64,000 nt of DNA from an uncultured Bacteroidales bacterium (GTDB lineage: Bacteria > Bacteroidota > Bacteroidia > Bacteroidales > UBA932). The stretch is taken from positions 62,001-126,000 of the forward strand of contig CALUQB010000001.1 in the NCBI GenBank assembly GCA_944322815.1. Reading direction: 5' to 3'. Position 1 is the stretch's first letter. Every line of letters begins with the position of its first letter. Below are positions 13,025-59,778 of this stretch, one piece after another. The notes under the pieces were generated by a model. The model was not told the origin of the DNA, did no database searches, and worked only from the letters and a program-made list of their open reading frames with translations. A program made the translations under genes and the position numbers.

Positions 13025-13056
13025 TAAGATTATCAACACGGACTGCCGGAAATTTT

Positions 13057-14181: not shown

Positions 14182-14214
14182 TATATTGGAGAAGAAGTTG
14201 ATATTGATCAGGTT

Positions 14215-14436: not shown

Positions 14437-14484
14437 TACTTGGACGGAAAACCACGTCATACGACGCAAAACCACATAAACCAA

Positions 14485-16518: not shown

Positions 16519-16546
16519 AAATTATTAACCTATAATATATTAAATT

Positions 16547-18508: not shown

Positions 18509-18511
18509 GAT

Positions 18512-39302: not shown

Positions 39303-40865
39303 TCATTCATGATTGCGGTGCCCCGGGAAATTAGGACCGTAAACCTCCTTTACCTTGCGGACTACAAGTTTCCCGTCCTGCACCCATCCCGGGCCTCTCT
39401 CGGACAGGTGCCTTACCATCGCGGAGCGCATTTCCTCCAGGGTGCTGGCATAAGACGGGCCTGATGACAGGTCTTGCGTCTCTCCCGGGTCCTTGTCAAG
39501 GTCGAAAAGCTGCTCCTTCCCGATTGCACAGTGCCAGATATACTTTACATGTCCGTCTGTAAGGGCTGTCCAGCTGTTGCCGTCCCAGTAGATACGGGCA
39601 TGTTCCAGGTCGATGTATTTTCTCCACACCGGATTTTCCTGCCTGATGAGAGGCAGTACCGACATTCCGTCCATACCTTCCGGACGGCCGGTCCCCACAA
39701 CTTCAAGGAATGTCGGAAGCACGTCCCTCAGCTCTACAGGCGCATCGACAGGACTTCCGGCAGGCAGGACCGTCTCATAGTCTTCAGGTACCTTGAGTAT
39801 GAACGGGATTGCGGATGAGCCTTCGTAGGCGTAAGTCTTCCTCCAGAGATAATGGTCTCCGAGCATGTCCCCGTGGTCAGAGATGAATATGATGATGGAA
39901 TTTTCATACATCCCCTTCTTTTTCAGAGCCTCGATTATACGCCCTATCTGCTCGTCTATGAATGTGATGCCTGCATAGTAGTGTATTCTCGAATTCATGG
40001 CGTATTCTGCCCCGAAATTGCCGATATATGCCGACTTGTCGGATGCCGGATCTTTCCGCACACTCCACTCTTCAGGCTCCCAGCTGCCTGTGTACGGGGC
40101 CGGGGCTGTGCGTCCGCGGTACATGTCAAGGCATCGCTGCGGAGGATCGTACGGGCTGTGAGGCCTTGCGAACGACACTTTCAGGAAAAGCGGCTTGTCA
40201 GAGCTGTAGCCCTCTATCATCTCCACCGCCATATCCCCTGTCCAGCGTGTGGGATGCACTTCCTCGGGAAGCTTGTATGCGGCAGCCCTGTGCTCGTTCC
40301 ATGTGATGCCTGTCTTGTCCGGATTTTCTCCGAAATGCCTGCTGTAGAACCATTTCCGGTAGTCGCTTTCGAAATATTCCGTAGTGTGCCTCCCGCTTTC
40401 GTCGTACAGGACCACGTCGTAGCCGTGTGTATTGTCCTGGGGATAATAGTGCATCTTGCCGACCGCAAGGGCTGCATATCCGGCATCCTTGAGCATGGAC
40501 GGCATCTCATACGGGTATTTTTCTGCCTGGTTGCCGTATCCCAGCATTCCGTGCCTCCACGGCGAGCATCCTGTCAGCAGCCCGGCCCTGGCGGGTGTGC
40601 TGCTCGGTGCAGACGAGTAGGCCGAGGTGAAGAGATATCCTGATGCGGCCAGGGAATCGATGTTCGGTGTGATTACAAGTCCTCCGCTCGTACACCCCAT
40701 GGCATCGCCCCTCTGCTGGTCCGTCATTATCATTATTATGTCGGGAAGCCTGTCTTCTGCCGGGGCTGACGCTGCCTCACCCGTCTGCCTTCCCTGTCCT
40801 GCCGCTGTCAGTACTGCAGGAATGCCTGCTGCCGTGACCGCGCTTATTTTAAGCAGATTCTTCAT
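39303..40865 (-). CDS. S1-family sulfatase, Ser-type
   Basis: 520 residues from the ATG at 40865, chosen because it gives an ATGA overlap with the permease stop and opens a signal peptide. The catalytic motif is S89-T-P-A-R93 followed by AGLLTG, so the residue converted to formylglycine is Ser, which needs the radical-SAM maturase anSME. Other alkaline-phosphatase-fold motifs are MTDQQRGD (D49), GKMHYY, SDHGDMLGDH and the C-terminal substrate region. It is exported and removes sulfate from a sugar. Last gene of the glycan-utilisation run. Which sulfate position it attacks cannot be read here. Confidence 0.94.
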   Translation of the reverse strand: MKNLLKISAVTAAGIPAVLTAAGQGRQTGEAASAPAEDRLPDIIMIMTDQQRGDAMGCTSGGLVITPNIDSLAASGYLFTSAYSSAPSSTPARAGLLTGCSPWRHGMLGYGNQAEKYPYEMPSMLKDAGYAALAVGKMHYYPQDNTHGYDVVLYDESGRHTTEYFESDYRKWFYSRHFGENPDKTGITWNEHRAAAYKLPEEVHPTRWTGDMAVEMIEGYSSDKPLFLKVSFARPHSPYDPPQRCLDMYRGRTAPAPYTGSWEPEEWSVRKDPASDKSAYIGNFGAEYAMNSRIHYYAGITFIDEQIGRIIEALKKKGMYENSIIIFISDHGDMLGDHYLWRKTYAYEGSSAIPFILKVPEDYETVLPAGSPVDAPVELRDVLPTFLEVVGTGRPEGMDGMSVLPLIRQENPVWRKYIDLEHARIYWDGNSWTALTDGHVKYIWHCAIGKEQLFDLDKDPGETQDLSSGPSYASTLEEMRSAMVRHLSERGPGWVQDGKLVVRKVKEVYGPNFPGHRNHE

Positions 40866-42121
40866 ATTATCGCGCATAATGTGCTGACTGCACACAAGGT
40901 GAGTCCTGTCATGCTTTCATACGGAATAAGCCTGAGCCGCTCCTTGATGCCCATACCTACGGAGCCTCCTGTCGCGTGGAAGAATGAACCGTGCGGAAGG
41001 TGGTCGAGCACCGTAGCTCCGGCATTGGTCATGGCGGCACCCCACACCGGACTTACGCCTGCGGCGAGTACCGTAGGGGCGAAAGACGCGGATGCGATTG
41101 TGGCACCTGCGGTGGTGGAGGCTGCAGCCGCCGACATAAGTATGCCTGAAAGAGGTGCCATGAACAGTCCGCCCATGCTCCATCCTGACAGCATGCCTAT
41201 GACAGTGTCCTTGATGTCTGAAGCCGTGATGATGCCTGCTATGGCTCCGGTGCCTGCAAGCAGGACAGCTACGCCTGACATCTTGTCAAGGCCGTAGACC
41301 AGGCATTCTCCTGTCTTCTTGAGGTTGCCTGTGGCAAGTATCCCCACAATACCTCCTGCGGGCAGGGCCAGAAGAGGATCTATCACTATTCCTGTAAGCG
41401 GCCTGAGGGCAAGGAGGACGATTGCCACCACTGGCCCGGATATGCTTGCAATGAAGGAGGGCAGCCTTGTGTCTGTCCCTTCATCGCTGTTGTCCGCATC
41501 ATATCCTGCCTCTCCCTTGCCCAGGAACTTCTCCGCAAGCGGAAGGATGACGAACACTGTGACCAGAAGTCCTGCGGCTGCAGCTATTATGTTGGCTCCC
41601 ATGACAGAGGGCAGGGGAGCACCGTAGTTTTCCGCGGCTATTATCGTGTTGGGATTCGGGGAAATGACATTGCCGCACTTGCCTCCGCCTATCATCGCCA
41701 GCAGCATTGCGGATCTGGAGATGCCGGCCTTTCTCCCGAGCATCAGACCGACCGGTGCGACTGTGATGACAGCCACGTCTATGAATACGCCTGCGGCTGA
41801 AAGTATCATTGTAGGCAGTGCCAGGGCCATGTAGACCGACTTGCTGCCGAGCTTCCTCATGATCGTGTCAGAGATGGACGAGGCTGCTCCTGTGACTATC
41901 AGGGATCCAGAAAGCACTCCTGCCGCCAGTATCCTTAGAATAGCCGGAGTGATGTCCTTCACTCCCGATATCATGTCCTCCACCGTGCCTTCAAGCCCGA
42001 AGCCTGAAAGCAGCCCTCCGGCGACAGCCCCGGCAAGCATGCTGTAGAACGGAGATACTTTTCTGATGATCAGCACTATCGCGACTGTCAGTCCGATCAG
42101 TGCCCCTATGGTGCTACTCAT
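40862..42121 (-). CDS. GntP-family permease (sugar acid/glycerate?)
   Basis: 419 residues with about 12 spans. It contains the GntP-type features: an N-terminal MLAGAVAGGLLSGF, the GGGKCGNVISPNPNTIIAAENY stretch (as GGKCGNVISPNPNT), and the C-terminal TNAGATVLDHLPHGSFFHATGG (as LDHLPHGSFFHATG). The family imports gluconate and related acids with protons. Since the adjacent gene is glycerate kinase, glycerate or a close sugar acid is the likely substrate; that is inference. It overlaps garK by 8 bases and the sulfatase by 4. Confidence 0.9.
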   Translation of the reverse strand: MSSTIGALIGLTVAIVLIIRKVSPFYSMLAGAVAGGLLSGFGLEGTVEDMISGVKDITPAILRILAAGVLSGSLIVTGAASSISDTIMRKLGSKSVYMALALPTMILSAAGVFIDVAVITVAPVGLMLGRKAGISRSAMLLAMIGGGKCGNVISPNPNTIIAAENYGAPLPSVMGANIIAAAAGLLVTVFVILPLAEKFLGKGEAGYDADNSDEGTDTRLPSFIASISGPVVAIVLLALRPLTGIVIDPLLALPAGGIVGILATGNLKKTGECLVYGLDKMSGVAVLLAGTGAIAGIITASDIKDTVIGMLSGWSMGGLFMAPLSGILMSAAAASTTAGATIASASFAPTVLAAGVSPVWGAAMTNAGATVLDHLPHGSFFHATGGSVGMGIKERLRLIPYESMTGLTLCAVSTLCAII

Positions 42122-43286
42122 TTCCGGAAATCCTGATGACGTTCATTATCTGGTGCACTGTCCTTCTTACATTTGCGGAAGCGGTGGACGGTCTCATCGC
42201 TTCATCCTTGTCCATACCGTACGGGGTGACAGGGAATACGGCGGCGAAGCCCTGGCTTGTCTCCATGTCTTCCCCGATGCAGCCTGCTATGGCTATTACC
42301 GGGATTCCAAGTGCCGAAGCCCGTTTTAGGACAGCCGAAGGCACCTTTCCCATGGAAGTCTGCCTGTCTATCCTGCCTTCTCCCGTGATCACGAGGTCTG
42401 CACCGGCTGCCAGGCTGTCAAAGCCGACGGCATCGAGTATCATTTCCGACCCCGGGACAAGCCTTGCACCGAGATATGCCGCCAGGGCTCCTCCAAGTCC
42501 GCCTGCAGCTCCGGCCCCTTTCATTGTCCTTATGTCTTGTCCGCACACTTTCCGTGTCATTTCGGCAAATGACTCCATGCCCTTGTCGAGAAGCCTTACC
42601 GTGTCAGGCCCCGCTCCTTTCTGCGGAGCGAAAATATATGCTGCACCTTCCGGCCCGCAGAAAGGGTTGTCAACATCGCATGCCACGTCGAACCAGGCCT
42701 TGATTATACCCTCCGGCACTCCGCTCATGTCCACGGCTGTCATCCTGGCCAGGTTTTCCCCTGTGCCTTCCAGTATGTTCCCGTCCTTGTCGAGGAATCT
42801 TGCCCCGAGTGCGGAGAGCATCCCCGTGCCGGCGTCGTTGGTAGCGCTGCCTCCTATTCCGAGCAGAAAGCGGGTGCATCCTCTCCGGTATGCATCCATG
42901 ATCATCTCTCCTGTCCCGAATGTGGTGGTTTTCATCGGGTCGCGCTCTTCAGGGGCAAGCAGGGGGAGTCCGCTTGCCGCAGACATCTCCATGATGGCTG
43001 TCCTGCCTGCACAACTGCCGTCCGGCAGGGTACGGCCGTGGCCTGTAATTCCGTAGGTCGCCTTCATCGGACGCATCAGGGGATCATGGACATCCACCTG
43101 TATGGATTCTCCGCCGAGCGCCCTGACGAGGGCTTCTGTCGTGCCCTCGCCGCCGTCAGCTATGCATATCCTGGTGACATTGCATTCCGGAAATACCGCC
43201 CTGATGCCTTCAGCTGCGGCTTCCGCAACTTCTTCCGAAGTCAGTGACCCCTTGAAGGAGTCAGATGCTACTACGATATTTTTCAT
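42114..43286 (-). CDS. Glycerate 2-kinase (GarK family)
   Basis: 390 residues. It opens with the family signature (VVASDSFKGSLTSEEVAEA as ASDSFKGSLTS), then CIADGGEGT, EMSAASGLPLL, LLGIGGSATNDAGTG and DLVITGEGRID. Enzymes of this family phosphorylate D-glycerate to 2-phosphoglycerate, which enters lower glycolysis. The 26-base overlap with the GH89 gene upstream is real, because the conserved N-terminus demands this start. It pairs with the GntP-type permease downstream as a glycerate uptake/use unit. Confidence 0.95.
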   Translation of the reverse strand: MKNIVVASDSFKGSLTSEEVAEAAAEGIRAVFPECNVTRICIADGGEGTTEALVRALGGESIQVDVHDPLMRPMKATYGITGHGRTLPDGSCAGRTAIMEMSAASGLPLLAPEERDPMKTTTFGTGEMIMDAYRRGCTRFLLGIGGSATNDAGTGMLSALGARFLDKDGNILEGTGENLARMTAVDMSGVPEGIIKAWFDVACDVDNPFCGPEGAAYIFAPQKGAGPDTVRLLDKGMESFAEMTRKVCGQDIRTMKGAGAAGGLGGALAAYLGARLVPGSEMILDAVGFDSLAAGADLVITGEGRIDRQTSMGKVPSAVLKRASALGIPVIAIAGCIGEDMETSQGFAAVFPVTPYGMDKDEAMRPSTASANVRRTVHQIMNVIRISGNE

Positions 43287-45489
43287 ATATGTGCCTGCAT
43301 TCTTCTATTTCGTCTCCTGAAGGTGTGGAAGGATAGCTCTCTGAGCTTTCTGTCCATTCCCATTCCCAGTCCTTGCATTTCTCTTCGAAGGCCTTCCCGT
43401 CCATTTCTTTGCCGGAGCGGAGGGCTTCCGTTGCCGTGTCGAAGAACATTTCCCATCTCGGGCGGTAGAAGCCTGACATCATGCCGGACCATTGCCTGCA
43501 TGCATAGTCGTGGAGATAACATTCGCGGTTGCCCCAGAGGGTCAGCAGGTTCCTGGCGTTATGTTCGTACAGGGCCTTTTCTTCCGGCGTGGCACCCATG
43601 TGTTTTGCCGCTTCGAGCCATCTGCCGAGCAGGAATTCGCTTCTTGTAGCGAGCAGCCTGTCCATGTCATCGATGAGTGCAAGGAACTCTGCCGCGTATT
43701 TTTCGAATTCCGGCAGGTTTTTCCTGTGGTATGCTGCCGCGGCCTTCTGCTGAACGTCTGAGGCGTGGTTCGCAAGCACCTGACGAGTGATGTCCACGAT
43801 GTCATACCTGTACCCGTCTCTGTCTCCGAGTGAATCCGCAGCGGAGACAAGCAGGTCCCAGGCTTCCGTGAGGTCCGAGTTGTCATAATGCAGCCTGGTC
43901 GTGGTGGTGCCCCCGGGATTTTTCTTGAATGTAGGTCTTCCTGTGATGATGGATTCCGGCCCGCCGTTGTTCTGAGTATTCTCGAACACTGACCCGAAGA
44001 GGATTTTCCATGCCTTGAAGGCTCTCGGGTCATCCTGTCCGTAACGGTTGCCGAAATACTCATGTATGAATTCGTCTTTGTCTATCGGGGTGTCCCTCCA
44101 GACATTTTCCAGCATGAGCGCATACATGACAGGAGTCTGCTCTATCCCTTCCATGGTAAGCCCGATACCCATGAATTTCCCTGCAGCCGGGTCTCTGAGT
44201 GCAGCTGCCGGCCCTTCGGCCACACTGGATGCATTGCCTGACATGGTGATGTTCTGCCCGAAGTTGTGGAGCATGCACCATATCCACGGTTTGCCGTAAT
44301 ACGCATCTGTCCGGCTCCATACCGGATATCTCTCGCTCCAGAGGTCCAGAATAAGCATCCTGTCATCCGGCACCGCACCGAGAAGTGCCTTGATTTCCTT
44401 GTCTCCCCAGAATTCACGTTCATGGTAGAAAAGCCATCCCTGCATTACCCATGTCGCTTCCGGGTCGGCCGATGCCATGGACTGGTAGACCTTCCCGCTG
44501 ATTTTCCCGAGGAATTCAGGATCGTTTGTCGGAGGCAGGTTCTCGTTGAATGTGTCTGCAGTGTAGTAATGGTTGGTCCCGTACAGTGCCGTCTGTTCTT
44601 CAATGAACATTTTCCCGATTTCGCCGAACAGTTCTTCATCGGGATCGAGGATGGATACCTCAGGGAAATTCACCCAGTCTGTCTTCCTGATATGGGCGTC
44701 CGGGAATTTCTTTTCAAAGGCAGGAGGCACATGTCCTGTGAAGGCCGGCAGCACTGGCGTCATGCCGAGGGACCTTTCAGCGTGAAGAATGTATTTCTGC
44801 AGCTCCTCATGCCTGTCGATGAAGCTCTGAGGAAGGGGTCCGCCCCATCCGTCGAGGTTGCCCATCCAGAACCAGTTGAAATATGCCGGCCCGCTGAAGA
44901 ATGACTCCAGGTCCTCATCGGTGAAGCCGAGGCGCCTGTAGACTTTCTGCCATACGGTGTTCTGTCCGGTCACCGCCAGAGGCATGTTGATACCGTTGAG
45001 TGCCATGAAGTCTATTTCCTTCTGCCATCTTTCTTCATCCCACCAGCTCATGGTATAGTTGAATGTGCAGTAGTTCAGGTAATATCTGTATTTGTACGGG
45101 GATGTCCTGGACACCGTGTCTTCAGGGACCGGCAGCACATCCGGCAGGGCCGTGTCCGACCCGCACCAGCTCAAGTGCCAGCCGCAGCGGTCCTTGAGGT
45201 AGTCTCCGAGGGCGCTTGCCACGCTGATACCGTTGTTGCCCTCAAGGACAATCTTCCCGTTTTTCCCGGCGTAGTACGAGAACCAGTCCCTGCCGTCTTT
45301 CCTGGTCTCTGTGATCTTGACAGCAAAGTCTTCCGCATGTCCGCCGGTCACACGGGCTACAAGGGCTTCCGCCGCTTTCTCCTGTTCGTTCAGTGAAAAG
45401 TCCGTCTTCACGGCACTGTCTTCTGCCATGCAGCTGCACAGGAAAAATGCAGAGGTGATGGCTAATGTCAGTATAGTTCTGGTATTCAT
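43261..45489 (-). CDS. Alpha-N-acetylglucosaminidase (GH89), lipoprotein
   Basis: 742 residues from the ATG at 45489, which opens a lipoprotein signal (AFFLCSCMAEDS); longer in-frame versions begin in non-coding sequence. It has the three-part NAGLU layout: a beta N-domain (about 30-135), TIM barrel (about 135-480) and helical C-domain (about 480-742). Key motifs are WWDEERWQKEIDFMALNGINMPL, FMALNGINMPLAV in the barrel start, DTFNENLPP (acid/base Glu) and MEGIEQTPVMY (nucleophile Glu). GH89 removes terminal alpha-linked GlcNAc, as in heparan sulfate or alpha-GlcNAc-capped mucin. Tandem with a second GH89. Confidence 0.95.
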   Translation of the reverse strand: MNTRTILTLAITSAFFLCSCMAEDSAVKTDFSLNEQEKAAEALVARVTGGHAEDFAVKITETRKDGRDWFSYYAGKNGKIVLEGNNGISVASALGDYLKDRCGWHLSWCGSDTALPDVLPVPEDTVSRTSPYKYRYYLNYCTFNYTMSWWDEERWQKEIDFMALNGINMPLAVTGQNTVWQKVYRRLGFTDEDLESFFSGPAYFNWFWMGNLDGWGGPLPQSFIDRHEELQKYILHAERSLGMTPVLPAFTGHVPPAFEKKFPDAHIRKTDWVNFPEVSILDPDEELFGEIGKMFIEEQTALYGTNHYYTADTFNENLPPTNDPEFLGKISGKVYQSMASADPEATWVMQGWLFYHEREFWGDKEIKALLGAVPDDRMLILDLWSERYPVWSRTDAYYGKPWIWCMLHNFGQNITMSGNASSVAEGPAAALRDPAAGKFMGIGLTMEGIEQTPVMYALMLENVWRDTPIDKDEFIHEYFGNRYGQDDPRAFKAWKILFGSVFENTQNNGGPESIITGRPTFKKNPGGTTTTRLHYDNSDLTEAWDLLVSAADSLGDRDGYRYDIVDITRQVLANHASDVQQKAAAAYHRKNLPEFEKYAAEFLALIDDMDRLLATRSEFLLGRWLEAAKHMGATPEEKALYEHNARNLLTLWGNRECYLHDYACRQWSGMMSGFYRPRWEMFFDTATEALRSGKEMDGKAFEEKCKDWEWEWTESSESYPSTPSGDEIEECRHIYEKYRSSI

Positions 45490-45514
45490 TATAATTATGT
45501 GTCTGGAAAAATTT

Positions 45515-47674
45515 TTATTCTGTTGTCTCAAGGAGCTTCCCCGCTGCCTTCAGGGGATTGGCAAACGGCTGTGGGTCTGCATTATATGGTGTCTGTATCC
45601 ATTTTTCTTCCCATCTGTCAAGAAGTCCTGCATCCTTTGTCCCGTGCCAGAGTTCGATCCGCGGTATATAGTAGTCGGATATCAGTCCGGACCAGTAGCG
45701 CGCCGCATAGTCCTCCTGCCATCCGCCCCATGTGGTGATGAGCCTTTTGGCATTTGCTTCATACTTGTCCTGCATGTCCTTGTCTTCGGAGCATCCGCGC
45801 GCGTATGATACCCAGTCGCCGAGATTCCTGTCAGAATGTGCAGCGAGAAGCTTGTCTGCATTCCTGAGTATGGATATTGTCTTCCCGAGCTCCTTTTCAG
45901 CCTCCGCGTCCTTTCCGCTCCCGAGTGCGGCAAGCGACTTTTCGTAATGCCTGTCCGCAAGTTCTCCGAGCCAGAAAGCCGTGAATTCAATGGCGTCGTC
46001 GACATATAGCGGCGAGCCTGCACATTTGTCGCTGCAGGACAGGAAGAGTTTCACTGCCTTCCCGAAATCGTCGTCTATGTCGTGTGCGCTTATTCTTCTC
46101 TTGTCAGGGACTACCGTCTGCCATGTGTACCTCGGATATGAATACAATGACGAATATACGGTTTCCCTGAAAATTTTCCATGCATCTTTCATTTCATCTC
46201 CGCTGTATCCGTAGCGGGCGTTGCAATATCCCTCGATCCAGCTGTCAAGGTCGATGCTTCCCCTTGTCCAGCCCATGTCTGCGAGGAGTTCGTAGATAAC
46301 ATCGTTGTTGTCGATGCCTTCAGGTGCGGATCCGAAGCCCGCAAGTGTCTTGCCGTAATCTGAAGCAAGTGCCTCGGATGAGGCTGAGGCATACATGGCC
46401 AAGTCTCCTGTCGGCAGGGTCTTGCCTCCGAAATTGGGCACATAGCTGAATATCCACTGCTTGCCGTAGAATCCTTCATGCACCTTCCATGTCTGTTCCG
46501 TGTGCCATACCCATTTCGGGTAGTCATTCCCCAGGTCTACTATGATGAGTCTGTCGTCCGGCACTTCCGAGAGCAGGGCCTGAAGGCTTTCCTTGTCCCA
46601 GAAGTCGTGCTGGTATCCGAATGTCCATCCTTGTGTGACCCATACCGCATCCGGATCCCCGGCACGGATGGAAGACCAGATGGCATTGCCGTACTGTGCC
46701 AGAAGTTCATGCTTGGCCGTGGTGTCGTTCTCGTCCACAGGGAGTTTCATCTCGTTGAAGCTGTCGGACAGCCAGTACTTTGCCTTTCCGAATTCATTTT
46801 CCCATTCCTGAATGAACATTTTCCCGATTTTTTCGAAATAAGGAGAATCCGGGGCAAGCACGCATACATTGTATTTTTCCGGGAATCCTCCCCATTCGAG
46901 GCGGTTGGCCCGTATTTCCGGATGTTTCTCAAGGAATGCCGGAGGTATGAATCCTGCAAATGCCGGTGCCACAGGCTCCATGCCGAGAGAGCGCATCCTG
47001 TCCAGTATTCTGTGCTGGAGCTCTATCTGGGATTCATGCCATTCTTCGTCCAGCGGCCCGTCGAAGGAGTTGATATTGCCCATCCTGTGCCACGGGAGGT
47101 GTGCAGGACCGGTGAAGAACGAATCAGCTTCTTCTGAAGTCAGCCCGAGTTTCATCCACACCCTTCTGGCAATGGCCTCTGAAGCTACGCTTGCCAGCGG
47201 CATGTTCACTCCGTGCATGGCCATCCAGTCTATCTCTTCGGACCATCTGTCCCAGTCCCAGTAAGGTGCGGTATATCCGAAGGTGCATACATTGAGGAAG
47301 TATCTCAGCCTGTACGGGGATTCTCCGGATACGTTATAATCAGGCCACCTGCCCGGGAGAGACAGGTGCTCTCCGCTGCAGGTGACCATTGAATTGCATG
47401 CTTCACGCAGATAGAGATTGAAGGCATAGCATATAGCCGACGGGCTGCTGCCTGTGATGGAAAGTTCGCCGTCAGCTGCCTTGACCGAGAAAGTGTCTCT
47501 GCCGTCGTCTGTCTTGTTGCAGAGGGCGAGTTCTATATTAGCGGATGTTCCTGCCCACCGGACAATCGCTTCTTCCGATGCTTCGAGCATTTCCCCGGTC
47601 ACGGTTTCCCGGCAGCAGCCCGCAGCCGCCATCATGACAGCTGCACAGGTCAGTATATGCAATGGTGCCTTCAT
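45515..47674 (-). CDS. Alpha-N-acetylglucosaminidase (GH89), second copy
   Basis: 719 residues with a lipoprotein-type signal (AAGCCRET). Same three-part layout as the neighbouring GH89, with WDRWSEEIDWMAMHGVNMPL as the barrel opening, SDSFNEMKLP (acid/base Glu) and APEGIDNNDVIYELL (nucleophile Glu). The sequences differ widely outside the active site, so the two copies are an old duplication and may prefer different linkages or chain positions. It starts 27 bases after the lipoprotein gene and ends 25 bases before the next GH89. Confidence 0.95.
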   Translation of the reverse strand: MKAPLHILTCAAVMMAAAGCCRETVTGEMLEASEEAIVRWAGTSANIELALCNKTDDGRDTFSVKAADGELSITGSSPSAICYAFNLYLREACNSMVTCSGEHLSLPGRWPDYNVSGESPYRLRYFLNVCTFGYTAPYWDWDRWSEEIDWMAMHGVNMPLASVASEAIARRVWMKLGLTSEEADSFFTGPAHLPWHRMGNINSFDGPLDEEWHESQIELQHRILDRMRSLGMEPVAPAFAGFIPPAFLEKHPEIRANRLEWGGFPEKYNVCVLAPDSPYFEKIGKMFIQEWENEFGKAKYWLSDSFNEMKLPVDENDTTAKHELLAQYGNAIWSSIRAGDPDAVWVTQGWTFGYQHDFWDKESLQALLSEVPDDRLIIVDLGNDYPKWVWHTEQTWKVHEGFYGKQWIFSYVPNFGGKTLPTGDLAMYASASSEALASDYGKTLAGFGSAPEGIDNNDVIYELLADMGWTRGSIDLDSWIEGYCNARYGYSGDEMKDAWKIFRETVYSSLYSYPRYTWQTVVPDKRRISAHDIDDDFGKAVKLFLSCSDKCAGSPLYVDDAIEFTAFWLGELADRHYEKSLAALGSGKDAEAEKELGKTISILRNADKLLAAHSDRNLGDWVSYARGCSEDKDMQDKYEANAKRLITTWGGWQEDYAARYWSGLISDYYIPRIELWHGTKDAGLLDRWEEKWIQTPYNADPQPFANPLKAAGKLLETTE

Positions 47675-47701
47675 AATATATTATCCTTTTTTCTTGTAAC
47701 G

Positions 47702-48955: not shown

Positions 48956-48990
48956 AACTGATAAGTTAATAATGTGTGTAATGTGTGATG

Positions 48991-49806: not shown

Positions 49807-49808
49807 GT

Positions 49809-50624
49809 TCAGTAGATTTTCTCGATATGGATGCGCCAGTATGGAAGCGCGCTTCCGTCTCCTTCCTCGAATTCCCGGCATGCAAATACAGCGGGGCAGA
49901 GGACGAACAGGTCGTATGCACTGCCTTCGGTCCCTGCATAGAAAAGCCTCAGGGCAGGGAAGTCTTTCGCGGCGGTCTCGGATACGGCTTCTTTGATTCC
50001 CGACGAGATTTTCCCGACTGTCACTCCGGAATTGAGTCTGCTCCCGGTCCATTGTGACGCTATCACGCTGAACTGGCCGGCTTCGGTCAGAGTGGTCGTG
50101 TAGATGCCGGTATAGACTGATTTTTCCAGAGGTACCGGGATTGTGACACCGGACATGAATACGCCTTCGCCCGGGACAACACTGTCGAAGTCCTCTATCT
50201 GGTATGGAGTCACCAGGCCTGTCCCTTCCGTGATGTCGGAAGTGCTTTCGGTCTGTACGAAATACGGCCAGTATCCGGTCTCGTACGCTATCTGTACGGC
50301 AGGGTTCGCCTTGCCTGTCTCAAAGTCGGTCCTGTCGAACATGTATGCTACAGGCACCTTGCCCTCCTGTCCCTGAATGTAGCTGACTGCATCTTCCCAG
50401 TCCCTTGTCGCGAAGAAGCTTTCTTCCGAACCGAGGTCTGTGAAGAAGTCTACGGTGAAGACTTTCTCTTCATTGATCTCATCCGGTATTTCAGGGATGA
50501 CCGGGGTCTCTTCCTCCCCGTTTCCGCCGCCGTTGTCCGGAGAGTCCGGAGCAATACCGTCATTGCATCCGGAGAATGCTGCAGCTGCGGCGGCAAGCAG
50601 GAATATGTATCTTGCTGTTTTCAT
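49809..50624 (-). CDS. Lipoprotein between two EEP genes, unknown
   Basis: 271 residues. The lipoprotein signal (AAAAAFSGCNDG) is followed by a Pro/Glu-rich linker (GEEETPVIPEIPDEI) and a single beta-rich domain. No known motif. The C-terminal PYWRIHIEKIY is well conserved in appearance but not assigned. Its tight packing between two EEP genes (2 and 6 bases) suggests a shared task, such as holding the phosphodiester substrate. Not identified. Confidence 0.85.
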   Translation of the reverse strand: MKTARYIFLLAAAAAAFSGCNDGIAPDSPDNGGGNGEEETPVIPEIPDEINEEKVFTVDFFTDLGSEESFFATRDWEDAVSYIQGQEGKVPVAYMFDRTDFETGKANPAVQIAYETGYWPYFVQTESTSDITEGTGLVTPYQIEDFDSVVPGEGVFMSGVTIPVPLEKSVYTGIYTTTLTEAGQFSVIASQWTGSRLNSGVTVGKISSGIKEAVSETAAKDFPALRLFYAGTEGSAYDLFVLCPAVFACREFEEGDGSALPYWRIHIEKIY

Positions 50625-50630
50625 GGTTCC

Positions 50631-51455
50631 TTATTCTGCTGTGAATACTACATCTGCCACAATGAAACAGTGGTCGGAAAGGTCCGGCCTGGCTATCACC
50701 TCGTAGCTTGTGCTGCTCCAGCTTCCCCGGGGATTGCCCATCACATAGTCAAGACGTCTGGTAGGCCTGTCGGAAGGGATGGTGTCACCTGTGCCGGAGC
50801 CGATGTCCTGCCATCTCTTGCGTGTCGCATACACTATCGGGTCGCTGCCTTCATCGGCATTGAAGTCACCGATGAGCAGGGTAGGGGTCTCTTCGTCTTC
50901 GGCGAAGATCTTCGTGTTCAGGTCCGCGATGTGCCTGATGGTGATCTCGGAAGATTCCAGAGCCAGATGGGTGGAGGCGACTCTTACCGTATTCCCGTCA
51001 GGCAGGCTGATATACACCCATCCTGTAGGCCGGAGTTCTCCCGCGCCTTCGATGTCGCTCATGATCTTCTCTGCCTTGAAGAACGGGTATTTGCTGAGAA
51101 TCGCCACGCCGAAATTCCCGGTGGAATACGGACGTGATGCATAGAACGGGAACATACCGGTCTCCATGGCCACGCTGTTCAGCCAGTCACGTCCCCCGTT
51201 CCTGGCAGTTTTGTAGTCCACTTCCTGGCAGCATACGATATCGGGGTCATATTCTTTTATGAGTTCGGAGAAAGGCCCTGACTCATATCCTGCATATTCA
51301 CCTCCCATACGGATGTTCATGGACATTACTCTCAGGGTTATCGTGCCGCCATTCCCGGCTTTTCCGGCACCGTCATTTCCGCCGGTGCCGGACTGGGCCG
51401 AAACCATTCCTGCCGTCAGCAGGAAGGATGCGATTATCGCCAATATCTTTTCCAT
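50631..51455 (-). CDS. Exported EEP-family hydrolase, second copy
   Basis: 274 residues from the ATG at 51455, which gives a TAATG overlap with the SusD stop; ATG at 51461 is the alternative. A signal peptide (ILAIIASFLLTAGMVSAQ) is followed by a Gly-rich linker and the EEP domain: SMNIRMGGE, DIVCCQEVD, STHLALESSE, GDFNADEGSD and LSDHCFIV. It is related to the EEP protein at 48991 but clearly diverged. Substrate unknown: phosphodiesters of glycans, lipids or nucleic acids are all possible. Confidence 0.93.
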   Translation of the reverse strand: MEKILAIIASFLLTAGMVSAQSGTGGNDGAGKAGNGGTITLRVMSMNIRMGGEYAGYESGPFSELIKEYDPDIVCCQEVDYKTARNGGRDWLNSVAMETGMFPFYASRPYSTGNFGVAILSKYPFFKAEKIMSDIEGAGELRPTGWVYISLPDGNTVRVASTHLALESSEITIRHIADLNTKIFAEDEETPTLLIGDFNADEGSDPIVYATRKRWQDIGSGTGDTIPSDRPTRRLDYVMGNPRGSWSSTSYEVIARPDLSDHCFIVADVVFTAE

Positions 51456-53146
51456 TACCATCCTGGATTGTTAGGGAGAAGGTTCGGGTTGAGCTGATAC
51501 TGTGTGAAAGGTATCGGCATCAGGTAGTGGCGAGGGTTCACGAACTGGCGTCCGGTCTCGAGCAGGAGATATTGCTCTCCGTCCTTGTCCTGCCATGTGA
51601 GAGCGTCCAGGTCGGCGACGACACGGTCCTGGTCAAGCCAGCGCCTGTTCACTCCGAGCAGATCCTGGCCGAGAAGTTCGCCTTCCTTCCATCTGATGAT
51701 ATCGAAATACCTGTGGCCTTCGAAGAACAGTTCCACACGCCTTTCCCTGTGTATTTCAGTCCTGATGTCAGACCCTGCAGGAAGGTTGCCTATGGTCATG
51801 TGTACCATTCCGACCCTGTCCCTGAGCCTGTTGACGGATATGTCAAGGTCTTGCTGCGTGAGGGTCCCGAGTTCCATCTTGGCTTCCGCATAATTCAGCA
51901 GGACTTCCCCGTACCTGAGGATGATGATGTCGTTGTCGTCATGGCTCACATATTCCACGGTGGACGGCTCCACATACTTCCTCATGTAGTAGCCGGTGTA
52001 TGTCATGCACCCGTTCCTGGTATTGTTGAGCTTTGGGTAAGTGTATATGGACGGGTCCGTGTTTTCCGGATCTTCCGAGCTAGTGGCTGTCCATTGCGTG
52101 CCTGGGGCAAGGATGGACATGCACATCCTCGGATCCCTGTTCTGGAACACCTCTTCATAGCTGTTGCAGCTCTTCGGGTCCCATATCTGCCCGTCTGCGG
52201 TAAGGTAGCATTCCACCATGCTTGCTGTCGGGACGAAGCGGGCATAGTCGTTCGGCACCCAGCATTCCCTGGACAGGTTGTGCGATGTCCTTGCGGCTTC
52301 TCCGAGATCATAATTGTAGACAAACGCCAGCATCACCTCGTGGTTGTCAGCGTTCCTGGATGCCCTGCCGGTATAATTGAAGAGGTTCACGTAGTCCTCG
52401 TCCGGATTGCCGGTGTCATACAGGTCGTAATAGCTGTTCTGCATGGCTCTTTCCGCCGCATCAGCCGCATCCGCCCATCTCTCGTTGTAGAGATAGATAC
52501 GGGAGAGTAAGGCCAGGGCGGCACCCTGTGAGACCCTGCCGAATTCCGCAGATCCTGCTTCTATGTATTCCGGAAGATTCCTGTAATGGTCCTCAAGGTC
52601 GGTCGTGATCTGGTCTATTACGTAAGACCTTTCGTCCCTTCCGCGGTAAACGTCAGGCGAGTCCACGTTCAGCTCGTCCGTGATATACGGCACGTCTCCG
52701 AAATATGTCGTGAGCATCCAGTAGTTGTATGCCCTGTAGAAATAAGCTTCCGCGGCATATCTTTCACGGACGGATTCGCTCACGGAGGTGGCCCTGCTGT
52801 AGTTGTTGAGGAAATAGTTCACACGACCGATGTTGGTGTAGCAGTCCACCCAGATGGAGTTTATCTGGGATGTCTCTGTCGTTAAGTTTCCTGCCCCTAT
52901 GGTCCTGAAAGCTGTGGTCACTGCCCAAGGTGCGCTGTCAGCCATGATTTCGGTCATGTTCAGCCAGTATTTCCCCTGGAGGGATTCCGTGAACGTGTTG
53001 GCTACGCTCTGAAGATGCTGCTCGTTCTGCCAGAAGTTGGCGTCGGTGAGCTGGTCTTGTGGCGCCCTGTCCAGGAAATCATCGTTGCAGGAGCACAAGG
53101 CGCCGAGCATGAACAGTAATGTATATGTTTTTGTCTTCATTTTCAT
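51455..53146 (-). CDS. SusD-like surface glycan-binding lipoprotein
   Basis: 563 residues. The lipoprotein signal ends LGALCSCNDD, followed by the SusD family opening FLDRAPQDQLTDANFW. TPR-like helices (EAYFYRAYNYW, GRVSQGAALALLSRIYLY in parts) and the C-terminal RagB/SusD motif (ERRVELFFEGHRYFDIIRW in parts) are clear. It is the lid of the SusC transporter, placed 15 bases after the SusC gene as usual. Two in-frame ATGs (53146 and 53140) give nearly the same protein. Confidence 0.96.
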   Translation of the reverse strand: MKMKTKTYTLLFMLGALCSCNDDFLDRAPQDQLTDANFWQNEQHLQSVANTFTESLQGKYWLNMTEIMADSAPWAVTTAFRTIGAGNLTTETSQINSIWVDCYTNIGRVNYFLNNYSRATSVSESVRERYAAEAYFYRAYNYWMLTTYFGDVPYITDELNVDSPDVYRGRDERSYVIDQITTDLEDHYRNLPEYIEAGSAEFGRVSQGAALALLSRIYLYNERWADAADAAERAMQNSYYDLYDTGNPDEDYVNLFNYTGRASRNADNHEVMLAFVYNYDLGEAARTSHNLSRECWVPNDYARFVPTASMVECYLTADGQIWDPKSCNSYEEVFQNRDPRMCMSILAPGTQWTATSSEDPENTDPSIYTYPKLNNTRNGCMTYTGYYMRKYVEPSTVEYVSHDDNDIIILRYGEVLLNYAEAKMELGTLTQQDLDISVNRLRDRVGMVHMTIGNLPAGSDIRTEIHRERRVELFFEGHRYFDIIRWKEGELLGQDLLGVNRRWLDQDRVVADLDALTWQDKDGEQYLLLETGRQFVNPRHYLMPIPFTQYQLNPNLLPNNPGW

Positions 53147-53161
53147 ATATTTATCGATTTC

Positions 53162-56100
53162 CTATTCGAATGTTATGTTAAGCCCTACCACGAAGGTCTT
53201 GACCTGAGGGTAATATCCTCCGCTCGATACAGGGGTCTCAGGGTCATATGCATAGAAGAAGTCGCTGACAGTCATGAGGTTGTCTCCGGAGAAATATACT
53301 CTCAGATTCTCGATTCTTGCCTTTTTCATCCATTTTTTCGGGAAGGTGTATCCGATCTGGACGTTTTTCAGCCTCAGATAGGAGGCGTCTTCGAGCCAGT
53401 ATGTGGAGAATGTGCTCTGGTTGAAGCTCGTGTTGTATGTCAGACGCGGATACGGAGCGTTCGGGTCAGGATTGGAGACCACGTTGTATCTCTGCAGATG
53501 GATTTTCTGCGGATAGGCCGCCATGTCCTGGAATGCATGCCTTGCGCTGCCTGTGAGGTATCCGTCGCATTTGCCCACACCCTGTATCACGAAACTGAAG
53601 TCGAGGTTCTTCCATCCGAAATCGCCTCTGAAGCTGTAGGTGTATCTCGGGATGTTGCTTCCTATGATCGTCTTGTCGTATTCAGGTGTGATACGTCCGT
53701 CCGGCACACCGTCAGGCCCGCTTATGTCCTTGTACTTGATGTCTCCTGGCTGATATGTGTTGCCGAGGATCACAGGTACCTTCGGCAGGTCGTACACATG
53801 GTTCTCATTATCGCAGATCTCGAAGTCTTCAGGAGTCATGAGCCCGTCGGCTATATAGCCGTAGAATGCATCGATAGGGTATCCGAGCATGCGCACCTGG
53901 TCTCCGCTCAGGTCTGGCGAGTTGCCTGCAAGGTCTGTGATCTTGTTCTTCACGTCAGAGAGATTGAAGCCGAAGCCGTAGTAGAAGTCCCCGACCTGGT
54001 CACGCCAGTTGATGTCCAGCTCCCATCCCTTGTTGTTGACCTTACCTGCGTTCTCCTCGGAAGGGGTGGCTCCGATCTGGGCAGGGTAGTTGAGCTGGAG
54101 AAGTATTCCTGAAGCGTTCTTGTTGTACCAGTCGAAGCTGAGATTCAACCTGTTCTCAAGCATGGCGATGTCCACGCCGACATCGAACATCCTGATGGTC
54201 TCCCATGTGAGGCCCGGATTGGCGAGTGTGGACTGCACATATCCTGTGGTGGCCCCGGCACCGATCAGTGAAATGCCGGAAGTGTAGGCTTCGAGGACAG
54301 ACAGGTACGGATAGTTGGATGATCCGACATACTGGTTGCCGAGCATTCCCCATGAAGCCCTGAACTTGATGTTGTCGAAGAGCGGCTTGGCGAATTTCAT
54401 GAACGGCTCTTCCGAGAGCCTCCATCCTGCGGAGAATGACGGGAAGAGTCCGCCTCTGTTGTTCTTGTGGAAACGGGATGAAAGGTCGTACCTGAGGTTC
54501 ACTTCGGCGAGGTATCTTTCGTCATAGTTGTAGCTGATACGTCCGAATCCTGATCTCAGGGCCCAGCTCTCTGCGCTGGCATCGTTGCTCATGGTAGAGG
54601 CGTCGCCCAGGTTGAGTGTAGGGTCGTCTTCAGTGACCAGATTGTTCCTTGAAGCCTCGAAGGTACGGTACTGGTACCATTCCTGTGACATTCCGACCAC
54701 TCCGGATATGTTGTGCTTCCTGATCTGGAAGTCGAAGTTGGTCTGCAGTATGAGTGTCTGCTGGAGACCCTTTGAGTCTATGTTCCTGAGTGTGTTCGGG
54801 TCCTGGTAGTCGTAGCTTGACTCGTCTTCCGGATTGACGAATGATATAGTCTTCCGGAGTACGTCTCTCAGGCCGTTGGTGGATGTGAGATTGTAGGTGG
54901 CGCTTATGTCCCAGCCCTTGATGATGTCGAGCTTGAGGACTTCCAGCACGGACAGGTTTTCATTTGTGGCGATGGAACGTCCGCCGTCGTAGAGTACGGC
55001 TACAGGGTTCGTATTGCCTCCGCCGTATGCCCAGCTTCCGTCAGTGTAGTATATCGGAGCATTCGGCGCGATACGCATGGCACTGTAGATGGCTCCTCCT
55101 CCTGAAGTCAGGGAATTGACGGGGGCTGTCACCTTGGATGATGTGTAGCCTATGTTGGATGACAGTGTGAGCCTGTCTATCAGTTTGGTGTTTATCTTGA
55201 AACGTATATTGTGCCTCTTCTCTCCCGTGGAGTTGCCGACGGTGAGTCCCTTCTGGTCGAAATAACGGTAGGAGAGCATGTAGCCGCTGCTGCCGACATT
55301 GCCGTTGATGGTCACATTGTAGTTCTGCTGTGGCGCATAGTCGTTGAGTACCGCCCCGATCCAGTCAGTGTTGCCGAAATGGTTGGGGTCAGTGCCGTTG
55401 GTCACTGCATCGAAGTCTTCCTGGAACCATGCGGCAGAAGTCCCTACATTGCTTCTGGCTTCGTTGTCCAGTGTCATGTATTCGATGGCATCGGCCATTT
55501 CAGGTAGCCTGGTAGGAGTCTGCATGCCGAAGTATGCACCGAATGTCACCCTTGCCTTGGCGCTTCCGGCATCGTCCAGTTTCTTGGTGGTGATGAGGAG
55601 CACTCCGTTTGCTGCCCTTGCTCCGTAGATTGCTGACGATGCCGCATCCTTGAGGACAGATACGCTCTCTATGTCGTCCGGATTCAGTGATTCCAGGTCA
55701 CCTTCCACACCGTCGATGAGGATGAGAGGGTTGGAATTGCCTATGGTGCCCACACCGCGGACCCTGATGGAAGTGCTGGATGAGCCAGGCTGTCCGGTAG
55801 GATTGACCACTGTCACGCCAGGGAGGAGACCCTGCAGTCCGGAGGTCACGTTGGATATAGGCCTTGAGGCCATGTCTTCGCTTGTCACCATGGACACTGA
55901 CCCCGTGAGGTTGACCTTCTTCTGGGTGCCGTAGCCGACCACCACCACTTCGTCAAGGTACTGCACGTCTTCGGACAGTTCCACGTCGATGACATTCCTC
56001 TTGCCTACGGCAGTAGAGTATGAAGAGAAGCCGAGGTAGGCGAATTCGATGACGGTATCCTGTGAAGGGACTTTCAGCGTATAGTGCCCGTTCTCGTCCG

Positions 56101-56545
56101 TGATGACCCCTGTGGATGTGCCCTGCAGTGTGACACCGACTCCGATCAGCGGCTCTCCGTTCTTGTCCGTGACTGTACCGCTGACCTCAAAGCTGCCGTC
56201 TTCAGAAATACTCCGGGGGGGGGTAGTTTCTAAAGTCTTGTCTTCTTTCACTGTAAGGATGATCTGCCTGTCGTCACGGATTTCATAAGCGATGTCCAGT
56301 CCGGCAAGCATTGTGTCGAGCACCTTTCCGATGCTCCAGTCCGTAGCTTCGACGCTCACCCTGGCATCCTTGCCGGGAAGCGTGCTGCTGTAGAAGAAAT
56401 TGTATCCGCTGGCTTTTTCAAGCTGGGACAGTGCCTCTGCCAGAGGCTTGTCCTGGATGGATACAGTCACTTGTGCGGCTGCCGTCACGGATAATATTCC
56501 TGACAGGCAGACAATCAGTGCAAGTGTCGATAATCTGTTAGCCAT
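53162..56545 (-). CDS. SusC-like TonB-dependent transporter with STN domain
   Basis: 1127 residues. A signal peptide is followed by an STN domain (about 25-95), which marks sigma/anti-sigma-linked receptors, then a carboxypeptidase-regulatory-like domain (SGTVTDKNGEPLIGVGV), the TonB box and plug (DEVVVVGYGTQ) and the beta-barrel. It imports oligosaccharide through the outer membrane with SusD. The STN domain fits signalling through the FecR/ECF pair encoded upstream. The linker between STN and the next domain is coded by a nine-C run (nine G on the plus strand at 56215-56223), so length changes there would shift the frame. Confidence 0.96.
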   Translation of the reverse strand: MANRLSTLALIVCLSGILSVTAAAQVTVSIQDKPLAEALSQLEKASGYNFFYSSTLPGKDARVSVEATDWSIGKVLDTMLAGLDIAYEIRDDRQIILTVKEDKTLETTPPRSISEDGSFEVSGTVTDKNGEPLIGVGVTLQGTSTGVITDENGHYTLKVPSQDTVIEFAYLGFSSYSTAVGKRNVIDVELSEDVQYLDEVVVVGYGTQKKVNLTGSVSMVTSEDMASRPISNVTSGLQGLLPGVTVVNPTGQPGSSSTSIRVRGVGTIGNSNPLILIDGVEGDLESLNPDDIESVSVLKDAASSAIYGARAANGVLLITTKKLDDAGSAKARVTFGAYFGMQTPTRLPEMADAIEYMTLDNEARSNVGTSAAWFQEDFDAVTNGTDPNHFGNTDWIGAVLNDYAPQQNYNVTINGNVGSSGYMLSYRYFDQKGLTVGNSTGEKRHNIRFKINTKLIDRLTLSSNIGYTSSKVTAPVNSLTSGGGAIYSAMRIAPNAPIYYTDGSWAYGGGNTNPVAVLYDGGRSIATNENLSVLEVLKLDIIKGWDISATYNLTSTNGLRDVLRKTISFVNPEDESSYDYQDPNTLRNIDSKGLQQTLILQTNFDFQIRKHNISGVVGMSQEWYQYRTFEASRNNLVTEDDPTLNLGDASTMSNDASAESWALRSGFGRISYNYDERYLAEVNLRYDLSSRFHKNNRGGLFPSFSAGWRLSEEPFMKFAKPLFDNIKFRASWGMLGNQYVGSSNYPYLSVLEAYTSGISLIGAGATTGYVQSTLANPGLTWETIRMFDVGVDIAMLENRLNLSFDWYNKNASGILLQLNYPAQIGATPSEENAGKVNNKGWELDINWRDQVGDFYYGFGFNLSDVKNKITDLAGNSPDLSGDQVRMLGYPIDAFYGYIADGLMTPEDFEICDNENHVYDLPKVPVILGNTYQPGDIKYKDISGPDGVPDGRITPEYDKTIIGSNIPRYTYSFRGDFGWKNLDFSFVIQGVGKCDGYLTGSARHAFQDMAAYPQKIHLQRYNVVSNPDPNAPYPRLTYNTSFNQSTFSTYWLEDASYLRLKNVQIGYTFPKKWMKKARIENLRVYFSGDNLMTVSDFFYAYDPETPVSSGGYYPQVKTFVVGLNITFE
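56215..56223. repeat. Nine-base G homopolymer inside susC
   Basis: A run of nine G on the plus strand codes Thr-Pro-Pro-Arg in the SusC-like protein (minus strand). It lies after the STN domain, about 330 bases into the gene. Runs of this length are prone to slipped-strand change; loss or gain of one base would truncate the transporter. Confidence 0.85.
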
Positions 56546-56579
56546 ATTGTTTGTTTGATGAGTTGTAGTCCGTATCGTG

Positions 56580-57572
56580 TCAGCGTCCGTCCCTGTCTTC
56601 GGAGAACGCTATTACATTTCCAGATATCACGTATCTTACCGGTGAAGTTCCTGAGATTAGCTCCAGTACATTGAGCAGGGAGCTGTTCCTGATAAGTCCG
56701 GTATACGAGAAGTCACCGACGCTGTCATCCTTGAAGATCACCTCCATGTTGTACATCCTTTCCAGGACAACGGCTATTTCCCTCAGGGTCTCCCCGGAGA
56801 ACAGTAGTTCGTTGTCTTTCCAAGGCACAAGGTATTCCGGATTTTCGGCTGTCACGGTCTCTGTCCTGCCGCTCGCCTTGTCAAGCACTATATACTGGTT
56901 CGGAGTCAGGATCTCGCTCTTGCCGGCCATGTCTGTCCGGATGCTGCCCTTGATAAGCGTGGCGGTGATTTCAGGGTCTTCTTCATAGGCCTTCACATTG
57001 AATTCCGTACCCAGTGCGGTGACATCCATCCCGGAAGCCCTGACCGTAAATGGAAGCTTCTCGTTCCTGGCGACCTCGAAATATGCCTCTCCGTCAAGCG
57101 ATACCGTCCTGTTTTTCCTGTTGTAGTCCGAGCGGTAGGTGATGCGGCTTGCTGAATTCAGAGTCACTTCAGTCCCGTCAGGCAGGGTGACAGAGCTTTT
57201 CTGTCCCTTGTCTGCGACTACCTCAAATGTCTGGACCGGTGTAGTATAGACGGCAGCCGTGTATCCGAGTACGGCTGCAGCACAGACACATGCCGCAGCT
57301 GCGATATACCATACAGGTCGTACCGCCTTGCGTGCAGTCCTGCGCATCGTGTTGTCTGTCGTATGTATTTTGGCGAAGAGCTCGGATTTGAGCCTGGTGC
57401 GTGTCTCGTCCGGCATCTCACAGGTGTTGTGCTCCCATTTCCCCCTGCTGTATTCATCGAACAGGGCTTCCATCTCCTGTTCAGGCATTTCGCGCAGTAT
57501 CCTGTTTTCCTCCGGTGAGGTGGTGCCGAGGAAGAATCTTTCGATCAGGTCCGAGTATTTGTTGATATCCAT
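56580..57572 (-). CDS. FecR-type anti-sigma factor
   Basis: 330 residues. The cytoplasmic N-domain (about 1-80) binds the ECF sigma factor. One membrane span (about 86-108, WYIAAAACVCAAAVLGYTAAV) is followed by the FecR domain (TFEVVADKGQKSSVTLPDGTEV as KGQKSSVTLPDGTEVTL, then YFEVARNEKLPFTV) and the C-terminal DUF4974 region that contacts the STN domain of SusC. It transmits substrate sensing from SusC to the sigma factor. It lies 34 bases before susC, but is separated from its ECF gene by three other genes. Confidence 0.96.
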   Translation of the reverse strand: MDINKYSDLIERFFLGTTSPEENRILREMPEQEMEALFDEYSRGKWEHNTCEMPDETRTRLKSELFAKIHTTDNTMRRTARKAVRPVWYIAAAACVCAAAVLGYTAAVYTTPVQTFEVVADKGQKSSVTLPDGTEVTLNSASRITYRSDYNRKNRTVSLDGEAYFEVARNEKLPFTVRASGMDVTALGTEFNVKAYEEDPEITATLIKGSIRTDMAGKSEILTPNQYIVLDKASGRTETVTAENPEYLVPWKDNELLFSGETLREIAVVLERMYNMEVIFKDDSVGDFSYTGLIRNSSLLNVLELISGTSPVRYVISGNVIAFSEDRDGR

Positions 57573-59112: not shown

Positions 59113-59158
59113 TACAGAGAAGTGATGAAAACCTGGTTTTACAGAGAAGTGATGAAAA
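59113..59158. repeat. 27-base tandem duplication across sigma factor stop
   Basis: A 19-base segment at 59113-59131 recurs exactly at 59140-59158, a 27-base offset. The second copy codes the last residues of the ECF sigma factor and the first copy lies just beyond its stop. A 27-base tandem duplication (nine codons) at the gene's end explains it. Confidence 0.75.
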
Positions 59159-59726: not shown

Positions 59727-59746
59727 GCAATCCCGTTGGACGCCGC

Positions 59747-59778
59747 CAAAAATAGGTGGTATTCCTGTTTCCGGCAAA
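59747..59778 (-). promoter_or_regulatory. Promoter of ECF sigma gene
   Basis: On the minus strand TTTG (59778-59775), 20 bases, then TATTTTTG (59754-59747): exact matches to both Bacteroidota elements. It starts just 14 bases beyond the argH stop and gives a leader of about 15-30 bases. This is the housekeeping-type promoter for the glycan locus control block. Confidence 0.75.

Follow-up and report, generated by a model that had tools for sequence, protein, structure and literature searches.

What does a gut bacterium feed on when a single run of its genes holds enzymes for alpha-N-acetylglucosamine (alpha-GlcNAc) bonds, phosphoesters and glycerate? The question is raised by 12 genes on the minus strand (39303-57572) of a 64,000-nucleotide stretch of DNA from an uncultured Bacteroidales bacterium (contig CALUQB010000001.1, positions 62,001 to 126,000; here called the window). 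The run reads FecR, SusC, SusD, EEP1, lipo271, EEP2, lipo448, GH89b, GH89a, GarK, GntP and a sulfatase (Table 1). All frames are intact, SusC and SusD adjoin across a 15-base gap, and the run is a SusC/SusD polysaccharide utilisation locus (PUL). Pfam and NCBIfam profiles uphold the families named in the initial annotation (FecR, SusC, SusD, two EEPs, two GH89 enzymes, a glycerate kinase, GntP and a sulfatase), and coordinates counted from likely ATG starts bear out the tight packing that it described, in which neighbouring genes overlap or lie no more than 35 bases apart (34, 15, -7, 6, 2, 35, 27, 25, -26, -8 and -4 bases from FecR to the sulfatase). We read the run as a PUL for a glycerate-containing phosphopolymer decorated with alpha-linked glucosamine (GlcN) or GlcNAc, most likely the PS-III lipoteichoic acid of Clostridioides difficile and antigenically related clostridia, a reading that, judged from sequence comparison, we hold with slightly more belief than doubt. 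Degradation of PS-III is offered as a strong prediction and not as a demonstrated pathway.

The PS-III repeat is [6)-alpha-D-GlcNAc-(1-3)-[P-6]-alpha-D-GlcNAc-(1-2)-D-glycerate] (PMC5270738, PMC6972965), in which about 15% of one residue is free GlcN (PMC10642750). Anti-PS-III antibodies cross-react with other clostridia (PMC5270738), so more than one species probably has the polymer. The parts of the locus and its relatives would require alpha-GlcNAc, in some cases unacetylated alpha-GlcN as well, a phosphoester, and glycerate released on the outer side of the inner membrane for uptake; clostridial PS-III is the one polymer found to combine alpha-GlcN(Ac), phosphoester and glycerate. PS-III is favored because every bond type in its published repeat has a matching enzyme, PS-III being compared here as a substrate and not as a homologue. 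Its two alpha-GlcNAc residues, some of them GlcN, are matched by two GH89 enzymes, its 6-P-6 phosphodiester by two EEP genes with catalytic motifs, and its D-glycerate by GarK and GntP or, in one relative (L046), by a MOFRL kinase-type protein and another GntP. Enzymes for all three features thus lie in one locus, as assigned by family only. The initial annotation had proposed an alpha-GlcNAc glycan carrying a phosphoester or yielding glycerate, and had named no substrate. Comparative data strengthen that proposal, save that both features are needed, not either one.

The gene set recurs well beyond the window. A profile of the 448-residue open reading frame (ORF) of lipo448 recovers 20 loci among named genomes, and since the order EEP1-lipo271-EEP2-lipo448 is kept in all 20, the set is more than a chance assembly. 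The hosts are Cryptobacteroides, other Bacteroidales metagenome-assembled genomes (MAGs), Alistipes, Rikenellaceae, a ruminant Tidjanibacter, a Paludibacter MAG and the MAG SZUA-422; their range, with habitats guessed from record names, extends from gut MAGs of chickens and ruminants to the Paludibacter MAG. The closest named record, a Candidatus Cryptobacteroides intestinipullorum MAG (L028), encodes the 12 proteins at 96-100% identity, and this near-identical locus counts towards the 20, whereas neither the alignments nor the tree include it. SusC is 61-99% identical in relatives where it is seen. Both GH89 genes are present in 17 of the 20 loci (L036 is cut, L038 has GH89a only and L040 GH89b only). 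L011-L015 hold the same genes as L030, L031, L041, L040 and L038 and are not recounted.

Glycerate genes accompany most of these loci. With L036, L037, L043 and L044 left out of the count, their contigs ending at the GH89 genes, 13 of 16 uncut loci pair a glycerate kinase with a GntP carrier, 12 through GarK and one through a MOFRL-type kinase. The latter, in the Paludibacter MAG (L046), combines a different GntP (PF02447, 303.8 bits) with a MOFRL/DUF4147 kinase-type protein (PF13660, 270.7 bits; PF05161, 118.0 bits). In our view, the strongest single argument for glycerate as the true product is this use of an unrelated kinase family at one and the same step. The window GarK, the sole PF02595 glycerate kinase of its draft genome, exceeds the TIGR00045 cut-off and falls below two equivalog models, a result that fits either a 2-kinase or a 3-kinase. 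Its partner GntP would carry glycerate, to judge by GarK. The same genome (64 contigs, 2.68 Mb) encodes NagB and holds no GH89 beyond the tandem pair.

Both exported EEP proteins retain the motifs of the fold. Across alignment A7, which holds 29 chosen EEP rows and not all EEP1 and EEP2 proteins of the 20 loci, N49, E80, H165, D199, N201, D263 and H264 are invariant and GDxN, THL/VHL and SDH occur in all 29 rows (alignments A5 and A6 do not include L034). We take the set N, QE, H, GDxN and SDH to be catalytic. EEP1 is proposed to open a phosphodiester bridge, and EEP2 to take off the phosphate that adjoins the bond cut by GH89b. An EEP2 relative encoded on its own, 57% identical (L016, genome G237, 11000-11764), stands divergent to a pstS/pstB/phoU run and beside an outer-membrane barrel gene, a setting that fits the liberation of phosphate.

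Between the two enzymes lies lipo271, which, like the 448-residue ORF, has no Pfam family above cut-off and whose fold the initial annotation had missed. Aligned to the EEP profile with hhalign, it gives a moderate match (probability 93.3 from 6 rows; 95.2, E 2.7e-8 over 140 columns, from 19 rows), and the match of a control profile is confined to the signal peptide. The window protein has none of GDxN, SDH or THL/VHL. The motifs are absent from 16 of 19 rows, a lone GDxN appears in L029 and L035 and a lone SDH in L032, and no row has two. Lipo271 is probably an EEP-fold relative that lacks the catalytic motifs, and we propose that it is a catalytically dead lipoprotein that binds phosphoglycan at the cell surface. 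A structural model of lipo448 contains an Ig-like domain and a C-terminal domain; its best solved match, a DUF4466 protein of Parabacteroides, is a weak lead, and lipo448 is proposed to be a glycan-binding protein.

The two GH89 proteins are lipoproteins by their signal peptides, read by eye. In each, the NE and PEG/MEG regions, both of which hold a catalytic Glu, align with human NAGLU, and we take the aligned Glu residues to be the catalytic pair by analogy with CpGH89. The catalytic residues of CpGH89 are E483 and E601 (PMC8225759). GH89 is rare: in a class-wide sample of 395 genomes, 16 have it. A GH89 tree of 81 rows, built by a quick method, rooted at the midpoint and labelled by locus even where a contig ends before the glycerate genes, places 24 GH89b rows from linked loci on one side of a branch (SH-aLRT support 96), with L069 next to them (100). 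Further out, a second tier of GH89b-like proteins (L095-L100 and L102-L109; frames of 839-1006 residues, about 36-44% identical) has no EEP or glycerate genes nearby.

The glycerate link persists where gene order does not. Five rearranged loci (L078, L093, L092, L090 and L091), spread over three genera and two family labels, encode GH89b at 58-63% identity in a different gene order, and all five hold GarK and GntP together with one to three EEP genes. In L078, EEP and GH89b form one protein of 952 residues (Exo_endo_phos, 72.4 bits; NAGLU, 417.5 bits), and in L093 both matches share a single open frame that no stop interrupts. In the tree, the second GH89 of these five loci lies on another branch than GH89a, and the pairing of GH89 enzymes therefore appears to have arisen more than once. 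Elsewhere, at 33 other GH89 sites, tblastn (E 1e-6) detects no GarK, GntP, MOFRL kinase or EEP1/EEP2-like gene in the surrounding 5-20 kb. These control sites are 17 of 19 regions of one set and 16 of 20 of another, several are cut by contig ends, and at one (L087) the GH89 itself goes unmatched by tblastn. In L090 (genome G1165, 14549-19393), three EEP genes stand with a GH127-like gene between them, an arrangement perhaps suited to a decorated form of the polymer.

Some relatives add an acetyltransferase. An HGSNAT-like gene is present in 3 of the 16 uncut loci, and tblastn detects one in the rearranged loci L090-L092 (in L092, PF07786 scores 43.1 bits at a cut-off of 22); the HGSNAT-like gene of L014 matches human HGSNAT at E 2.7e-15. 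Ordinary GH89 genes (L070-L076, L079 and L083) also often lie beside an HGSNAT-like acetyltransferase, which suggests that acetylation of alpha-GlcN ahead of GH89 is common in bacteria.

The gene content, families and conservation, the kinase replacement and the EEP-GH89b fusion are observed; a pathway for PS-III can be drawn from them, in which the substrate assignments, step order, enzyme-bond pairing and cell location are all predictions. SusD, the dead EEP lipo271 and lipo448 would capture the polymer at the surface, and SusC would import it. EEP1 might then open the 6-P-6 phosphodiester and EEP2 strip the remaining 6-phosphate, after which the two GH89 enzymes would act in turn, one on GlcNAc-(1-3)-GlcNAc and the other on GlcNAc-(1-2)-glycerate. 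GH89b may act directly after EEP2, as the EEP-GH89b fusion suggests. In some relatives, the HGSNAT-like membrane enzyme would N-acetylate glucosamine residues first. Freed D-glycerate would be taken up by GntP and converted by GarK to phosphoglycerate, and GlcNAc or glucosamine would be used via NagB.

Several observations weigh against PS-III as the substrate. The published structure has no place for a sulfatase of the 3-O-sulfo-GlcNAc type, no recognised gene accounts for either the glycolipid anchor (Glc3-glycerol) or D-alanine esters, and the repeat itself is worded with "seems" in one source (PMC10642750). The link to glycerate has exceptions as well: in L040 glycerate genes are absent, in L031 GarK and GntP survive only as a fused remnant, and L038 has GntP alone, on the opposite strand at a contig end. 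In L069 (genome G408, 5383-16296), a GH89 pair and an EEP gene occur with PL8, GH88 and GH92 and without glycerate genes, so the kin of GH89b are not bound to glycerate. The window GntP does not reach the cut-off of the gluconate model TIGR00791, nor does the MOFRL protein of L046 reach the NCBIfam equivalog cut-offs, so that the cargo of the one and the substrate of the other are predicted. HGSNAT-like genes adjoin 9 of 17 ordinary GH89 sites and hence are not specific; the window locus has none, and elsewhere in its genome there is only a distant partial match (31%). Finally, the loci share ancestry, and the counts are not independent events.

Which other substrates might explain the locus? 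The module logic fixes only alpha-GlcN(Ac), a phosphoester and glycerate, and the same pathway could serve another, undescribed glycan with these features, such as a capsule, an exopolysaccharide or a teichoic-type polymer, 3-O-sulfated in some hosts. The S1_46-type sulfatase hints at such a wider or different substrate range, as do the L044 and L046 MAGs, which are maybe not from the gut (a guess from record names). We consider this rather unlikely, since it postulates an unknown polymer when a known one fits the core parts, partial de-N-acetylation included. A host glycan, either sulfated alpha-GlcNAc-capped mucin or heparan-type fragments, in which phosphate decorations would be the target of the EEPs and the glycerate genes a metabolic side module, is less probable again. 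GH89 enzymes do act on alpha-GlcNAc-capped mucin and heparosan (PMC8225759), and BT1918, the closest match of the window sulfatase, is placed in heparan catabolism (PMC10154612). Against this stand the glycerate genes, which track the EEP/GH89b set and are absent from all 33 other GH89 sites, and the gene content of the run: Pfam and NCBIfam profiles assign none of the 12 genes to a lyase or a further glycosidase, and find neither the heparin/heparan lyases nor the GH88 expected of a heparan sulfate PUL, so that the argument of the initial annotation against whole heparan sulfate holds. We know of no glycerate or phosphodiester that either mucin or heparan would supply. The gastric-type mucin that the initial annotation had suggested for growth assays is an unlikely substrate, as it explains neither feature and as MAGs with names that point to other habitats (Paludibacter and SZUA-422; habitats guessed) also carry related loci.

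Two lipid-linked candidates are less probable than either. The phosphoglycolipid of Thermus/Deinococcus type, alpha-GlcNAc-(1-3)-glycerate with 2-phospho-diacylglycerol and an alkylamide, does contain alpha-GlcNAc, a phosphodiester and D-glycerate (PMC3398001), but it has one alpha-GlcNAc bond where the locus has two GH89 enzymes, its glycerate could be released only with an amidase, none of which is recognised in the loci, and it is a small lipid rather than a glycan of the SusC/SusD type. Such bacteria are, moreover, not usual in chicken and ruminant guts, and we regard this source as very improbable. Slightly more doubtful still are glycosylphosphatidylinositol (GPI) or glycosylinositol phosphorylceramide (GIPC) glycolipids, with alpha-GlcN(Ac) towards inositol phosphate and sphingomyelinase-like EEPs. 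The HGSNAT-like genes fit alpha-GlcN, EEP1 passes the PGAP2IP nuclease-like model (30.3 bits, cut-off 27; EEP2, at 21.4, falls below it) and sphingomyelinases give a weak match to the EEP profile (36.1 bits). However, no mannosidase, glucuronidase or inositol gene is found among the 12, and a glycerate kinase that is conserved, and once replaced, would be left unexplained.

The sulfatase that closes the run bears on the choice between PS-III and a sulfated glycan. Its match to PDB 7oz8 spans residues 45-526, and the next best match reaches 249.2 bits. 7oz8 is BT1918, of subfamily S1_46 (PMC10154620), which takes the 3-O-sulfate off GlcNAc (PMC10154620, PMC10154612); the S1_46 label of the window protein comes by way of 7oz8 and that paper and not from SulfAtlas. 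The initial annotation had made sulfate a property of the substrate. A sulfatase is present in only 7 of the 16 uncut loci and looks like an accessory; its targets may be sulfated variants or a different glycan.

An ECF sigma factor gene lies two genes upstream of FecR in the window, and in 17 of the 20 related loci it adjoins FecR, being not seen in the covered part of the other three. A scan for promoters and terminators gives 18 promoter-like sites, with 14.6 expected, and 5 terminator-like sites, with 15.3 expected. The two ORFs between the ECF sigma gene and FecR (57545-58129 and 58226-58870) have no Pfam match, and relatives at that position occur, among the 20 loci, only in L028. On the same strand, after the sulfatase, a 154-residue protein (38720-39184) is likewise without a Pfam match; related ORFs stand there in L028-L030.

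Table 1. Genes of the predicted PUL and its proposed sigma factor in the window (positions in the window; families from Pfam and NCBIfam profiles unless stated)
Feature	Position	Strand	Evidence
FecR-type anti-sigma factor, PUL regulator	56580..57572	-	PF04773 68.0 bits, PF16344 58.6 bits
SusC-type TonB-dependent outer-membrane importer	53162..56545	-	TIGR04056 926.7 bits
SusD-type surface glycan-binding lipoprotein	51455..53146	-	PF07980 169.6 bits
EEP1, exported EEP-fold phosphoesterase	50631..51461	-	PF03372 73.6 bits; GDxN and SDH motifs
lipo271, 271-residue lipoprotein, probable EEP-fold relative without catalytic motifs	49809..50624	-	hhalign against EEP profile
EEP2, exported EEP-fold phosphoesterase	48991..49806	-	PF03372 79.5 bits
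lipo448, surface lipoprotein, 417 residues from conserved start (448-residue ORF 47702-49048)	47702..48955	-	
GH89b, alpha-N-acetylglucosaminidase, glycerate-linked clade	45515..47674	-	PF05089 411.2 bits
GH89a, second alpha-N-acetylglucosaminidase	43261..45489	-	PF05089 483.9 bits; human NAGLU 4xwh 581.5 bits
GarK-type glycerate kinase	42114..43286	-	TIGR00045 439.5 bits (cut-off 168.45)
GntP-family inner-membrane carrier	40862..42121	-	PF02447 76.2 bits (cut-off 22.5)
S1-type sulfatase closest to BT1918 (S1_46), accessory	39303..40865	-	PDB 7oz8 628.2 bits
ECF sigma factor, proposed FecR partner	59139..59777	-	TIGR02985 132.4 bits

PULs have mostly been studied for dietary and host glycans. 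The window locus shares with Bacteroidetes PULs the SusC, SusD, ECF/FecR, exported hydrolases and inner-membrane carrier in one gene run, but adds two EEPs, a further EEP that is probably dead, and a kinase and carrier for glycerate. In the open-licence literature searched, no PUL with this gene set is described, and no paper connects teichoic acid in this way with SusD, GH89 or PULs, or a glycerate kinase with such a PUL. In lysosomes, heparan end-degradation proceeds by HGSNAT and then NAGLU. Relatives of the locus resemble this system in encoding an HGSNAT-like enzyme beside GH89, by which alpha-GlcN would be acetylated first; the proposed substrate differs in being a bacterial phosphopolymer, and the window locus differs in being without an HGSNAT-like gene. 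Bt0438 and Bt3590 of Bacteroides thetaiotaomicron share the GH89 family, and Bt3590 cuts alpha-GlcNAc from heparosan oligosaccharides (PMC8225759). The window pair, unlike these two, stands with EEP and glycerate genes, and GH89b falls in its own 24-row clade of a tree that does not include Bt0438 or Bt3590 among its rows. BT1918 is by far the best match of the window sulfatase, yet it is an orphan gene in heparan catabolism (PMC10154612), whereas the window sulfatase closes a PUL.

PS-III is known as a surface antigen, and its microbial breakdown is not described in the passages cited here (PMC5270738, PMC6972965, PMC10642750). Synthetic PS-III repeat units already exist (PMC6972965), which makes the PS-III hypothesis testable. 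The chances are about even that this is the first recognised Bacteroidota system for using a polymer of the teichoic acid type, by which Bacteroidales of the gut and the environment would feed on clostridial glycerate-type lipoteichoic acid via paired EEPs, paired GH89s, a dead-EEP receptor and a glycerate uptake/kinase pair. If true, the locus would be a source of candidate enzymes acting on glycerate-type lipoteichoic acid, of use in antigen analysis, and would give EEP genes a function in PULs and the glycerate kinase a reason to stand beside GH89. Dead EEP-fold proteins would be suggested as receptors for phosphoglycans. Bacterial cell-surface polymers would then join the gut food web, and the growth of Bacteroidales would be tied to clostridial turnover.

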